Shown here one piece after another: positions 8,132 to 37,688 of a DNA stretch of 64,000 nt; the stretch's first letter is position 1; every line of letters starts with the position of its first letter. The position numbers were made by a program, and so were the translations under genes. This DNA comes from Pseudomonadota bacterium (GTDB lineage Bacteria > Pseudomonadota > Alphaproteobacteria > SP197): NCBI GenBank assembly GCA_039028155.1, contig JBCCIS010000001.1, positions 1-64,000 on the forward strand, in the 5' to 3' direction. Below the pieces are notes generated by a model. That model saw only the letters and a list, made by a program, of their open reading frames with translations. It had not been told where the DNA came from and ran no database searches.

Positions 8132-8341
8132 TCAGCGGCGATCACGTCCGCGCTTGATCACAAAGGCGACGAGAGCCGCCAGGCCGATGGCGGCAGCGAT
8201 CAGGGGCAACGCTTCGATGACGGCATCGCCAAAGTGCCAATGGGGTGCGCCCGCCGCATCGTGGGCGTGGGCGGAGAGGGCGAACAGGCCCGGCAGAACC
8301 GTAGCCAGGGAGGCGGCGATCGAACGGGTGAAAAGCGTCAT
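8132..8341 (-). CDS. Small His-containing membrane/periplasmic protein
   Basis: A 69-residue protein. Residues 1-26 look like a signal peptide ending near AHA, followed by the His-bearing stretch HAHDAAGAPHWHFGD. A single C-terminal membrane helix (about residues 42-62) ends in the basic tail KRGRDRR. GGAAG lies 7 bases before the ATG. The start resembles the histidine-bearing N-terminus of HupE-type nickel proteins, but no further similarity is claimed. It is 34 nt downstream of the His-rich ureohydrolase gene on the same strand, so co-transcription and a link to metal supply are plausible inferences. Confidence 0.6.
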   Translation of the reverse strand: MTLFTRSIAASLATVLPGLFALSAHAHDAAGAPHWHFGDAVIEALPLIAAAIGLAALVAFVIKRGRDRR

Positions 8342-8375: not shown

Positions 8376-9560
8376 TTAGTCGGACATCACGCGGTCGCGG
8401 TGGCCGATCTTGCCCTCGACGACCATGGTGCCGAGGGTATCCAGGATCACGCGGCAGGCGAGCTGCGCGGTGTTGTCGTTGACGTCGTAGGGTGGCGAGA
8501 CCTCGACCACCTCCATGCCGCACAGACCTTCGCGCGCGATCAGGCGGACCATCTCAAGCGCCTCACGCGGCATAAAGCCGCCGGGTTCCGGCGTGCCGGT
8601 GCCCGGCGCGAAACCGGGATCGATGGAGTCGATATCGAACGAGAGATAGACCGCCTTGGCGTCTTTCCAGGCAAGCTCCAAGGCCATCTCGGCAGCCTTC
8701 TTGGTACCGAGCTCTTCGACATCGGTCATGGTCATGACGCTGGTGCCGCGCTCGTTGGCGACTTCCGAGCCGCGGCGCGAGCCATACCAGCCGCCGATGC
8801 CGATCTGAACCAGGTTCTTCGGCGGACAGTTGGCAAGTCCGACATCGTGCATGTGGGTATGAGCGTGGTGCGAAGAGCTCCTGTCGACGCTCTCATGGCC
8901 GTGGGATGTCCAGTACCAGGGTGTCGTGTGCATGCGCTCGTCCATATCCATGTCGGCCATGTCGATGTGACGGTCGAAATGGATGATGCCGACATTGCCG
9001 TCGATATGAGGCGCGATGCCGCGCACGTTCGGATAGCCCAGCGAATGGTCACCGCCGACCAGGATCGGAAAGGCGCCCGACGTATAGACATGGGAAACCG
9101 CGAGGCTCACCTGATCGAACGTCTTCTCGATATTGCCGGGGATGACGAAGATGTCGCCGGCATCGCACATGTCGAGCTCTTCGGGCAGGTCGACACCGCC
9201 GTCGACCGAATAACCGTCATAGACCGCCGAGATGCGCCGGACCGCCTGGGGCCCGAAGCGCGTCCCCGGGCGATAGGTCGTGCCGGTATCGAAGGGCACG
9301 CCGACAAAGGCCGCCTCATAGTCGCCGACCTTCTTGATGTCCTCGCAGTAAGTCGACTTCATGAAGGTATTGATCCCGGCAAAGGCCGGCAGGTGGCCGC
9401 GGCTGAACAGCGAGATCGTCCGGTCGTGGATCGAGTCCGCGGCCTCCAGCCCCAGTTCCAGGGTCCTGGCGATCTCTTCTTCTTGTTTGGTCTGGGAGAT
9501 CTTGCCCAAACGCTTCAGGTTCCGGTTGCCGCGCAACTCCCCCGACTTCGGATCAGGCAT
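8376..9560 (-). CDS. Ureohydrolase (arginase/agmatinase/guanidinase superfamily) with His-rich insertion
   Basis: This 394-residue enzyme should hydrolyse a guanidino compound to urea plus an amine. The dinuclear metal ligands are all present: His172 (GGDHS), Asp196-His198-Asp200 (FDRHIDMAD), and Asp309 and Asp311 (SFDIDSID). A long N-terminal extension of about 80 residues and the stretches HTTPW and PPKNLVQIGIGGW resemble, from memory, the clade containing the nickel-dependent guanidine hydrolase GdmH rather than ordinary SpeB. Between HTTPWYW and CPPKN lies an extra segment with seven His at 220, 222, 231, 232, 234, 236 and 238. No HypA/HypB-like chaperones or guanidine riboswitch are seen nearby. 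The true substrate is unresolved. Confidence 0.8.
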   Translation of the reverse strand: MPDPKSGELRGNRNLKRLGKISQTKQEEEIARTLELGLEAADSIHDRTISLFSRGHLPAFAGINTFMKSTYCEDIKKVGDYEAAFVGVPFDTGTTYRPGTRFGPQAVRRISAVYDGYSVDGGVDLPEELDMCDAGDIFVIPGNIEKTFDQVSLAVSHVYTSGAFPILVGGDHSLGYPNVRGIAPHIDGNVGIIHFDRHIDMADMDMDERMHTTPWYWTSHGHESVDRSSSHHAHTHMHDVGLANCPPKNLVQIGIGGWYGSRRGSEVANERGTSVMTMTDVEELGTKKAAEMALELAWKDAKAVYLSFDIDSIDPGFAPGTGTPEPGGFMPREALEMVRLIAREGLCGMEVVEVSPPYDVNDNTAQLACRVILDTLGTMVVEGKIGHRDRVMSD

Positions 9561-9732
9561 GTTTCTCCCCCGTGACGTTTTTTGCCTTGCCCCCGCACGC
9601 TAGTGGCTGGCGGCGCCCGCATCAATCGCCATATGGTCGATGCCATACATTGAAGGTGGATGACGTAGCGTGCGGCGTTTACGTCGACTAGGTTCTCGGG
9701 AACAGGCGCAGCAGCGAATTACGGGGGGCACC

Positions 9733-11148
9733 ATGGGCGCGAGACGTATCATCCGGAACGCCTGTGTCATCTCCGTCGACCCGGAGATCGGCACCCAGCG
9801 AGACGCCGACATCCTGATCGACGATGACCACATTGCCGCGATCGAGACCGAGCTGGATGTCGAAGATGCCGAGCCAATCGATGCCAGCGGCATGATCGCC
9901 ATGCCGGGCCTGGTTTGTTGCCACCGGCATCTTTGGATGACACTGCTGCGCGGCTTTATCTCCGACGGCACGTGGTCGAGCTATCTGGTCGAGACGTTCT
10001 GGGGCCGCCGGCCGCTCTACCGGCCAGAAGACAGCCACATCGCAGCCTATGCCGGCGCGCTGGACGCCATCGATGCCGGCGTCACCACGGTCTTGGACTT
10101 CCACGATTGCAGCGTCCGCGAAAGCCTTGCCGATGCCAGTCTGGACGCCCTCGAGAAGAGCGGCCTGCGCGCGGTCTTCGCCTATGGTCTTGAAGGGCCG
10201 CCCGATTTGGAGGGCACCGCCGGTGCCGAGTCGCTGTCGCCCACGCTGCCCTGGCATCGCGACGAGGCGCTGCGCCTGCGCAACGGCCGCCTGTCCAGCG
10301 ACGACGGCCTCATCACCATGGGCATGACCGCCCGCAATCTGGAGTTCCTGCCCTTTGCCTGTGCGGAGCACGATCTGGGGCTCGCCCGCGAGCTTGGCGT
10401 GCGCACGGTGACCACCCATGCGGGATCCGGTGCGCTGGGCAAGGGCGCGACCCTTGTCGATAACCTGCGGGACCATGACCTTCTGGGACCGGACATTCTG
10501 TTTTCCCACGGTCAGAGCTTCACCGACGAGGAGCTCGATACGTTGGCGGCCACGGGCGTCAAGATCGTGGTGTCAGTCGAAAGCGAGCTTGGCCAGGGCG
10601 CCGACCCCGTCACGTGGCGCGCCCTTCAGCATGGCGTGTCGGTGAGCCTGGGCGCCGATTCGGTCGGTAGTCTGGCGGGCGACATGTTTCGCCACATGCA
10701 GATGACGCTCAAAGTCGGGCGCGGCTCCAGGGCGCGGCTGTTAGATGAGCAGGGCATCGCGCCGACGGATGTGGCGCTCACGAGCCGCGACATGCTGGAG
10801 ATCGCCACCATGGGCGGCGCTCGGTCGCTGCGCCTGGATGACAGGATCGGCAGCCTGACGCCCGGCAAGCAGGCCGACATCATCCTGCTGTCGCGCGAGC
10901 GGGTCGGCATGATGTCCGGCGCCGAGCCCGAACAGATCGCCGTCCTGCAGGCCAATGGTCGCGACGTCGATACGGTGCTCATCGCCGGGCGGGTGCTGAA
11001 ACGCCATGGCGTCTTGCTGGATGCCGACCTCAAGGCTGTTGCGCGCAGTCTCGAGGCCTCGCGCGCCTATCTTGACGAGTCCTACGGGCACCTCGACACC
11101 GGCGGTTTGTGGGATACCTACAACACCAAGGTCGCTGCGGCGTCTTAA
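9733..11148 (+). CDS. Amidohydrolase, TRZ/ATZ (cytosine/guanine deaminase-like) family
   Basis: A 471-residue metal-dependent hydrolase that would remove an amino or chloro group from a heterocycle or guanidine-like substrate. Metal-site motifs are CHRHLWMTLLRG (HxH, near residue 72), TTHAGSG, FSHGQS and SLGADSVGS, and the C-terminal PGKQADIILL sheet is typical. A longer reading frame exists, but the ATG at 9733 is preceded by GGGGGG and matches the family N-terminus (RRIIRNACVISVD). It is divergent from the ureohydrolase gene by 172 nt and convergent with the amidase, suggesting a nitrogen-compound catabolic locus. The substrate is unknown. Confidence 0.82.
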   Translation: MGARRIIRNACVISVDPEIGTQRDADILIDDDHIAAIETELDVEDAEPIDASGMIAMPGLVCCHRHLWMTLLRGFISDGTWSSYLVETFWGRRPLYRPEDSHIAAYAGALDAIDAGVTTVLDFHDCSVRESLADASLDALEKSGLRAVFAYGLEGPPDLEGTAGAESLSPTLPWHRDEALRLRNGRLSSDDGLITMGMTARNLEFLPFACAEHDLGLARELGVRTVTTHAGSGALGKGATLVDNLRDHDLLGPDILFSHGQSFTDEELDTLAATGVKIVVSVESELGQGADPVTWRALQHGVSVSLGADSVGSLAGDMFRHMQMTLKVGRGSRARLLDEQGIAPTDVALTSRDMLEIATMGGARSLRLDDRIGSLTPGKQADIILLSRERVGMMSGAEPEQIAVLQANGRDVDTVLIAGRVLKRHGVLLDADLKAVARSLEASRAYLDESYGHLDTGGLWDTYNTKVAAAS

Positions 11149-35566: not shown

Positions 35567-36532
35567 TCACAATGGCCGGTCGCTTCCCTCCGTCAGGCGG
35601 GTTAACAACCCTTCGACCGCATCATCGAAGGCGACATCGCCGGAAAGCACGCTGTCGCACAAGGTTCCCAGCACATCTTGTTCGAGGCCATGGGCCCGAT
35701 CGCGGGCCAGGTCCGCCACGGCCGCGACCAGCAATTGGCCCATGCGCCGGCGCGCACCATCGATACCAGAGGCGGCCTTGCGCGCACCGAGATCTGTAAC
35801 AGTGTCGACGAGGTCGCCTACACCGTCGCCGCGCACCGCGATTGTTTTCAGCACCACGGGCCGCCGTTCTTCCGGCAGGTAGGACGAGGCGCCCTTCAAG
35901 GCTGCCTCTGTCTGCACGGCCTGGGGCAGATCCGTCTTGTTGACGACCAGCACATCGGCAATCTCGAGTATCCCGGCCTTCGCGGCCTGAACTTCGTCGC
36001 CGGCGCCCGGTGCCCACACGACGACACGGATGTCGGCCAGGCCGGCGATCTCGATCTCCGATTGACCGACGCCGACCGTTTCGACCAGGACGACCTCCTT
36101 GCCGCCGGCGTCCATCACGTCGACCAGTCGCGCGGTGTTGCGTGACAATCCGCCCAGATGGCCGCGCGAGGCGACGGAACGGACAAACACGTCGGGATCG
36201 CCGGCATGGTCCAGCATGCGCACACGGTCGCCCAGCAGCGCGCCACCGGTGAACGGGCTCGACGGATCGACGGCCAAGACGCCGATGGTCTTGTCGCGCC
36301 GGCGCAGTTCGCGGATCACCGCCGATACCAGGGTCGACTTACCGGCGCCCGGCGCACCAGTGATCCCGACGACAAGCGCGCGGCCGGTCCTGCCATGGGC
36401 GGCGCGCAACACATCGGCCGCTTCGCCGGTGTCATTCTCGACGGCTGTGATCGCGCGCGCGAGTGCGGCGCGGTCGCCGTCGAAGAGGCGATCGAGCCAG
36501 TTTATGGTTTGAGAAGGCGATGGCGCTGACAT
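35567..36532 (-). CDS. meaB: MeaB/ArgK-family GTPase, methylmalonyl-CoA mutase chaperone
   Basis: A 321-residue G-protein metallochaperone that loads and protects adenosylcobalamin in methylmalonyl-CoA or related mutases. Walker A is GITGAPGAGKSTLVS, followed by AVDPSSPFTGGALLGDR, the switch region ETVGVGQSE, and the guanine-specificity motif NKTD. The frame extends 74 codons further upstream, but the ATG at 36532 matches the family N-terminus (NWLDRLFDGD). No mutase gene is in the window. The start is 88 nt from the divergent ABC gene. Confidence 0.9.
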   Translation of the reverse strand: MSAPSPSQTINWLDRLFDGDRAALARAITAVENDTGEAADVLRAAHGRTGRALVVGITGAPGAGKSTLVSAVIRELRRRDKTIGVLAVDPSSPFTGGALLGDRVRMLDHAGDPDVFVRSVASRGHLGGLSRNTARLVDVMDAGGKEVVLVETVGVGQSEIEIAGLADIRVVVWAPGAGDEVQAAKAGILEIADVLVVNKTDLPQAVQTEAALKGASSYLPEERRPVVLKTIAVRGDGVGDLVDTVTDLGARKAASGIDGARRRMGQLLVAAVADLARDRAHGLEQDVLGTLCDSVLSGDVAFDDAVEGLLTRLTEGSDRPL

Positions 36533-36620
36533 GGTGGCGGCGCAGTCTACGCGCGCGGCGCACCGGCCGGAAGACCGACGCTCGATTGCGCATTCCGGCT
36601 TTTTGACGCAGGTTTTGGTG

Positions 36621-37688
36621 ATGGCCTCGACCAACAAATTGGAATTGATGTCGGTGACCGGCGCCGAAGGCGGCTGCATGCCGGTTGACGGCGTTTCCCT
36701 GAACGTTGAGCCCGGCGAAACCCTCGCTGTCTTGGGTCCCGAGCGCGCCGGCAAATCGTCGCTTATCCGTTTGATCGCGGGCTTCGGCGACGTCGTCGGC
36801 GGTCACATTTCGTTCAACGGCCATAATCTCGCGAAGATCGCGCCGCGCAAGCGGCCGTTCGCCCTGCTCGGTGAGCGCGATGCGTTGTTCCCGCACCTAA
36901 CCGTGCGCAAGAACATCGCCTATGGCTTGAAGGCCCATCGACTTGATTCCCGCGATATCGAGGAACGCATTGCGGAGAACCTCGCGTTTTTCGAGATCTC
37001 GTCGCTCTTGAACGACTATCCCGATGCCTTAAGCCGGTCGGACCGCCATAAGGTTGCCTTGGCCCGCGCACTGGCGACACGGCCGCTGGTCGTGTTGATG
37101 GACCAGCCGTTCGACGCGCTCGATCCCATGCTGGCCGGCAGCCTGATGTATACGCTGCGCGACATGCAACGCCGCGCCGGTTTCAGCATGATCATCGCGA
37201 CACGCGACAGCGATACGGCACTTGCCGTTGCCGACCGCGTCGCCGTCATGAGCGAAGGCCGACTGCTGCAGGTGGGCACGCCCGACGCACTCTTTGACCG
37301 CCCGGAACACGCCCTGGTCGCGACACTGACCGGCCCGGTCAACCTGCTTTACGGGACGGCCCATGGCAACGCGATCGAGGTCACCGGATTGGGGACCGTG
37401 CCGGCGAATGCGGCCGACCTGCCCACCGGTACGCCGGCGGTCTTGTGCCTGCGTCCCGATCTCTTGGAGCTATCCCTTTATCCGCCCGAAAACACTGAGA
37501 TCGCCGTTCGCCTGGAGGTGCGCGACGTCACATATGCCGCCGGCGGCCTGCGCGTGCGGTTGGAGAGCGGCGCGCACCGGCTGGCGGCGCGCCTCGACGG
37601 CCGGCGCCTGACATCAGACGACTTGCCTTCGGGACGCCAGATATGGTGTACCTGGGACCGCGACGCGGCCCACGTCCTGCGCGCGTGA
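36621..37688 (+). CDS. Orphan ABC ATPase (PotA/FbpC-like) with degenerate catalytic motifs
   Basis: A 355-residue protein with the fold of an importer ATPase plus a C-terminal TOBE-like beta domain (about 260-355). Walker A (GPERAGKSS, residues 39-47) is acceptable. The Q-loop Gln is Glu85 (LGERDALFPHL), the LSGGQ signature is LSRSD (137-141), the Walker B Glu is Gln162 (VLMDQPFDALDP) and the H-loop His is Arg195 (ATRDSDTAL). Every residue needed for hydrolysis apart from the P-loop is changed, yet the frame is intact. No permease or binding protein is adjacent; the neighbours are MeaB and a glycosyltransferase. It may bind nucleotide as a regulator. Confidence 0.8.
   Translation: MASTNKLELMSVTGAEGGCMPVDGVSLNVEPGETLAVLGPERAGKSSLIRLIAGFGDVVGGHISFNGHNLAKIAPRKRPFALLGERDALFPHLTVRKNIAYGLKAHRLDSRDIEERIAENLAFFEISSLLNDYPDALSRSDRHKVALARALATRPLVVLMDQPFDALDPMLAGSLMYTLRDMQRRAGFSMIIATRDSDTALAVADRVAVMSEGRLLQVGTPDALFDRPEHALVATLTGPVNLLYGTAHGNAIEVTGLGTVPANAADLPTGTPAVLCLRPDLLELSLYPPENTEIAVRLEVRDVTYAAGGLRVRLESGAHRLAARLDGRRLTSDDLPSGRQIWCTWDRDAAHVLRA

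Follow-up and report, generated by a model that had tools for sequence, protein, structure and literature searches.

The window analysed here, a stretch of DNA of 64,000 nucleotides, carries on its minus strand a gene (8376-9560) for a GdmH-related ureohydrolase of 394 amino acids with a histidine-rich insert. On the same strand, 34 bp after the stop codon of the enzyme, lies a gene (8132-8341) for a tiny exported membrane protein of 69 amino acids. A PRK08204-like amidohydrolase is encoded divergently on the plus strand (9670-11148), but its membership in the system is unsupported; both this gene and a nearby amidase gene were considered as pathway partners and set aside, as neither is conserved as a neighbour in the relatives. 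A gene at 35567-36754 was recognised by eye as encoding a MeaB/ArgK-like G-protein chaperone.

The enzyme belongs to the arginase family (PF00491, E 6.7e-78). It retains all six metal ligands, H172, D196, H198, D200, D309 and D311, which match H182, D207, H209, D211, D299 and D301 of the Nitrospira inopinata guanidinase, and the domain together with these His/Asp residues places it in the ureohydrolase (arginase) superfamily. Among solved structures, the nearest are the Ni/Mn guanidinase 9fek and GdmH 7esr, both by sequence (444 and 440 bits, respectively, against 153 for the next family) and by predicted fold (Z 48.6 and 48.1, against 36.7 for metformin hydrolase). This agrees with the first-pass annotation, which had described a GdmH-like ureohydrolase with intact metal ligands. 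The grouping by sequence and fold, an N-terminal extension and the nesting of the insert-bearing clade among GdmH-like sequences assign the enzyme to the GdmH type. Its catalytic histidine, His211 (motif MHTTPW; 8928-8930, minus strand), is the equivalent of H222 in the N. inopinata guanidinase. Comparison with the nearest relative gave a dN of 0.008 and a dS of 0.48, which indicates strong purifying selection. We regard the enzyme as a ureohydrolase of a separate subfamily that derives from GdmH and probably depends on Ni(II). Paralogues of the ureohydrolase family are unusually numerous in the genome from which the window comes, at roughly 15 (contigs C39, C5, C10, C26, C43, C24, C37, C98, C27, C2, C16, C30 and C1).

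The feature that had drawn attention to this gene, i.e. seven histidines within residues 220-238, is confirmed exactly by translation of 8376-9560 (H220, H222, H231, H232, H234, H236 and H238), although the segment had been placed at 8846-8901 and the correct bases are 8847-8903 (minus strand). The inserted loop itself lies within residues 216-237 (8850-8915, minus strand) and is 21 residues longer than the corresponding part of GdmH. The phmmer alignments to both guanidinases end at PWYWT and restart at HDVGL, omitting the whole stretch between. Counted back from NLVQ, HDVGLANCPPK pairs with HATNLPNVPAK, so that H238 aligns with the histidine of PWFHATN in GdmH and is ancestral, and the six histidines within the insert proper (residues 216-236/237) are new. 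A naive binomial estimate for at least seven histidines in 19 residues, at the 4.6% histidine content of the clade, is 1.4e-5, a post hoc value that is indicative only. The insert follows directly after the catalytic H211 segment and precedes the conserved H238, in keeping with its original placement by active-site motifs; the vicinity of the histidine cluster to the active site is suggested by sequence position only. AlphaFold assigns residues 208-240 a pLDDT below 50, whereas a loopless relative is predicted at the same site with a pLDDT of about 85, except for residues 204-208. This difference suggests a loop that is flexible, depends on metal or takes its shape from adjacent subunits.

When 84,980 species genomes and the window's relatives were scanned, about 33 distinct insert-bearing homologues (74-98% identical) emerged, along with 47 loopless relatives whose identity does not exceed 68%. 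Nine positions are invariant in the 33 distinct homologues: H231, H234, H236, M237, H238, D239, V240, G241 and L242. The first six of them form the distal core H231-x2-H234-x-H236-M-H238-D239 (8844-8870, minus strand). The residues W217 and T218, which adjoin the insert, are invariant as well. On the other hand, the proximal half (residues 219-230) varies in sequence and length, giving inserts of 17-31 residues overall, and it looks like a tether. Extra histidines recur there in several lineages, and in all insert regions the 18-32 residues after PW contain 5 to 10 histidines, H238 included. An invariant distal core next to a variable proximal half indicates that the insert is under selection, and an origin by chance or low-complexity drift is ruled out by the invariant columns across the 33 distinct homologues.

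With the loop columns left out of the tree, the insert-bearing sequences form one group of single origin (support 100/100). Its sister (94/85) consists of two actinobacterial sequences (L049 and L052), which are loopless. The clade is rare: of 385 genomes sampled from the class, three have it, one of them being the window's own (88-100% identical). Among its hosts are members of the methylotroph genera Hyphomicrobium and Methyloceanibacter and of Aminobacter. The loop is confined to this clade and missing from the GdmH structures and the GdmH-like relatives, as the first reading of the sequence had supposed. No description of a histidine-rich insert in any ureohydrolase was found in the open-access literature, which is a weak negative. 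The insert is therefore a real, conserved and clade-defining feature of a diverged lineage within the guanidinase family.

Control of GdmH by the guanidine-I riboswitch is usual, although not universal. No such riboswitch was detected in positions 1-30,000 of the window, nor at any of 24 loop loci, as compared with 9 of 11 loopless loci (p 8e-7). Guanidine hydrolysis is marked by two residues, Thr97 and Trp305 in the Synechocystis GdmH and Thr105 and Trp313 in N. inopinata (PMC11410670). The enzyme keeps the former as Thr95 (9276-9278, minus strand), but the tryptophan is replaced by Thr323 (8592-8594, minus strand), and this position is T or S in every loop member that covers it. The loss of the tryptophan, together with the riboswitch distribution, makes guanidine an unlikely substrate of the loop clade, and the earlier designation of the enzyme as a guanidine-type hydrolase was not upheld. 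Weak matches to the guanidine-II riboswitch occur near loop genes in Hyphomicrobium (L045, 6665-6714; L040, 14588-14629), and divergent guanidine-I riboswitch pairs were seen upstream of loopless guanidinase genes (L068, 9158-9863; L060, 5072-5678; L086, 3100-3572).

Another substrate is suggested by the genomic company of the loop gene. Of the 27 loop genomes, 10 encode a homologue of the alpha subunit of DmgH (dimethylguanidine/metformin hydrolase), as against none of the 22 loopless ones (p 0.001, with taxonomy as a confounder); the window's genome contains no DmgH homologue. At one locus (L035) the gene order is hypB, hypA, DmgH alpha, DmgH beta, loop enzyme and tiny exported protein. The loop enzyme itself differs from the DmgH/MefH heteromers, with which it shares 25-27% identity, and the DmgH pairs are encoded by separate genes. 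From the DmgH association, the L035 operon and the hosts (Hyphomicrobium, Methyloceanibacter and Aminobacter) we infer that the substrate might be a small N-alkylguanidine, e.g. methylguanidine. A search of the open-access literature for a methylguanidine hydrolase retrieved no description, again a weak negative. In relatives G003 and G011 hypB and hypA stand beside a ureohydrolase pair resembling dimethylguanidine/metformin hydrolase (L098, 1-2393; L099; L030), and in L030 the loop gene lies between two pairs of this kind.

The gene neighbourhood also bears on the metal. A nickel permease gene, starting within about 100 bp, directly follows the loop gene in 13 of 31 loci (HupE in 8 and a NicO-type permease in 5). 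Among the 47 loopless genes, 12 are likewise followed by one of these permeases, and the frequency at the loop loci is not significantly higher (p 0.14). The adjacency therefore speaks for nickel use by these enzymes as a family and not for a function of the loop, and nickel seems to be a trait of GdmH relatives in general. At locus L040 a TonB-receptor-like gene, read by eye, comes after hupE. The window's genome has two ureases and one NicO-family gene located elsewhere; neither HupE nor HypA was found in it. LysR regulators adjoin the loop gene in 17 of 34 loci, and an SsuA-type ABC importer stands beside it in about one third; guanidinase operons have been reported to contain an importer of this type, too (PMC8390497). 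Upstream of the loop gene, several loci (L042, L047, L029 and L026) share a gene for an AllG-like subunit of oxamate carbamoyltransferase; some loci also have genes for a MetX-like hydrolase, an FMN reductase and a type III glutamine-synthetase-like protein, and a longer pathway may be encoded there.

In cyanobacteria, the HypA and HypB (GdmAB) genes adjoin GdmH, although this arrangement is not universal. They did so in five cyanobacterial controls, but not in the window. HypA and HypB occur together in 11 of the 27 loop genomes, and neither was found in the other 16; among the loopless genomes HypB was found in 11 of 22 and HypA in 12 of 22 (one partial). The frequencies do not differ (11/27 versus 11/22, p 0.57). 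In loop genomes HypAB rather tracks DmgH, lying beside a DmgH-like pair in 10 of the 11 cases, and only one of the 17 genomes without DmgH has HypAB. The idea that the loop acts in place of HypA/HypB, put forward in the first-pass annotation, was rejected on these counts, as well as on the L035 operon, which combines the loop with hypAB. The characterised comammox guanidinase works without HypAB, and its nickel acquisition is stated to be unclear (PMC11410670). The loop enzyme appears to do likewise, as do many loopless guanidinases; about half of the loopless GdmH genomes also have no HypA/B, so that independence of HypAB does not require the loop. It could nevertheless help in nickel loading.

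The tiny protein is predicted to have a signal-like N-terminus, a histidine-bearing periplasmic segment (HDAAGAPHWH) and one transmembrane helix. The gene, pointed out at the outset as an exported neighbour, is evidently real, as it is preceded by a Shine-Dalgarno-like AGAAAGGAAG and shows a dN of 0.11 and a dS of 0.36 against the nearest relative (dN/dS about 0.32). A search of Pfam and NCBIfam with the 69-residue protein gave nothing convincing, with no Pfam match and hence none to PF04955 (HupE/UreJ). Tiny histidine-bearing proteins occupy the same post-enzyme slot, which is also the permease slot, in five lineages (the window, L026, L034, L035 and L037), although they are too diverged to be clustered by BLAST. 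The scan for further members required an A-H motif, and without this filter only window/L018, L034 and L037 were recovered; the observation that each protein would begin with histidine if cleaved at AxA is therefore partly circular. The protein of L026 resembles the first segment of HupE (HLVTGADHLLVL). Metal-capturing Ang domains with an N-terminal histidine have been reported on HupE/UreJ-2 permeases (PMC12537917), and by analogy a role of the tiny protein in nickel capture is plausible.

Based on these observations, we tentatively favour, at somewhat less than even chances, the view that the insert is a Ni-binding arm built into a GdmH-derived, probably Ni-dependent alkylguanidine ureohydrolase. 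The His/Met cluster of the HxxHxHMHDVGL core would capture incoming Ni(II), which the core would then hold near the mouth of the active site, so that the loop might load the dinuclear site, or retain its metal, without a need for HypA/HypB. The enzyme would split a small N-alkylguanidine such as methylguanidine into urea and an amine, and the urea released could be used by urease, of which the window's genome has two. There, the tiny exported protein may help in nickel capture. The boldest form of this proposal, rather unlikely as a whole, is that the enzyme has a nickel chaperone of its own built in as a loop, with the HxxHxHMHD arm taking Ni(II) delivered by an importer and inserting it into the dinuclear site of an alkylguanidine (e.g. 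methylguanidine) hydrolase, while a new kind of tiny membrane peptide with an N-terminal histidine aids nickel uptake.

Two other explanations are serious rivals to the Ni-binding arm. The insert could be a substrate-shaping lid, which takes over the lining or gating function of the lost Trp305 and whose invariant His and Met residues contact the substrate or neighbouring subunits rather than loaded metal. Its location between the catalytic H211 and the conserved H238 would suit such a role, as would the invariance of the flanking W217 and T218; moreover, loopless L049 and L052 already have Ser at the Trp305 position, which places the specificity shift and the insert on the same lineage. However, an invariant HxxHxHMH is an unusual choice for a lid, and a lid does not account well for a proximal half that is free in length and in which histidines recur. 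We regard this explanation as possible, though on balance doubtful. Those same variable histidines would also be left unexplained if the insert were a structural Ni or Zn site, ordering the loop or the interface within the hexamer without delivering metal. Its invariant candidate ligands (H231, H234, H236, H238 and M237), four to five in number, are about what one site needs, and the loop remains unmodelled without metal, but H238 is already conserved in insert-free enzymes and so has another role; a purely structural site thus seems unlikely.

Far less probable still is a guanidine hydrolase whose nickel store takes the place of HypA/HypB. GdmH is the best match in sequence and structure, the enzyme keeps the counterpart of Thr97 and every metal ligand, and the window's genome has no HypA. 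On the other hand, such an enzyme is difficult to reconcile with the T or S at the Trp305 position in all loop members covering it, with the absence of the guanidine-I riboswitch from loci of this type, and with HypAB being as frequent with the loop as without it and even sharing one operon with it.

The conserved histidine arm within these enzymes offers a direct test case for built-in metal loading. The loop clade also points to an uncharacterised ureohydrolase specificity beside the metformin and dimethylguanidine hydrolases, one that may be relevant to the breakdown of guanidine-type pollutants.

Among known systems, GdmH (7esr/7oi1 of Synechocystis and 9fek of N. inopinata) is the closest to the loop enzyme, with 53% identity over the fold, a Z of 48, the N-terminal extension, the six metal ligands, Thr97 and the catalytic histidine in common, and with Ni permease genes and, in one third of the loop loci, an SsuA-type importer nearby. 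Unlike GdmH, the loop enzyme has the 21-residue histidine-rich insert and Thr at the Trp305 position, and its gene is often adjoined by a LysR regulator instead of a guanidine-I riboswitch. DmgH/MefH (8ryi and 8snf) are likewise Ni-dependent ureohydrolases of the same superfamily, with homologues in 10 of 27 loop genomes and once in the operon of the loop gene; however, they are obligate alpha-beta heteromers with hypAB adjoining, whereas the loop enzyme is encoded on its own by one gene and shares 25-27% identity with them. The tiny protein, if cleaved at AxA, would share with the HupE/UreJ-2 permeases bearing Ang domains a signal peptide followed by a mature N-terminal histidine and a membrane tether, but it has a single transmembrane segment, no permease domain and no sequence-family match. 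Finally, clustered histidines that are thought to bind Ni also occur in known proteins that handle nickel, such as the UreE tail, HypB and the NicO loop, the last of which was observed here. In those cases the cluster belongs to a separate chaperone or transporter, whereas here it is located inside the catalytic enzyme.
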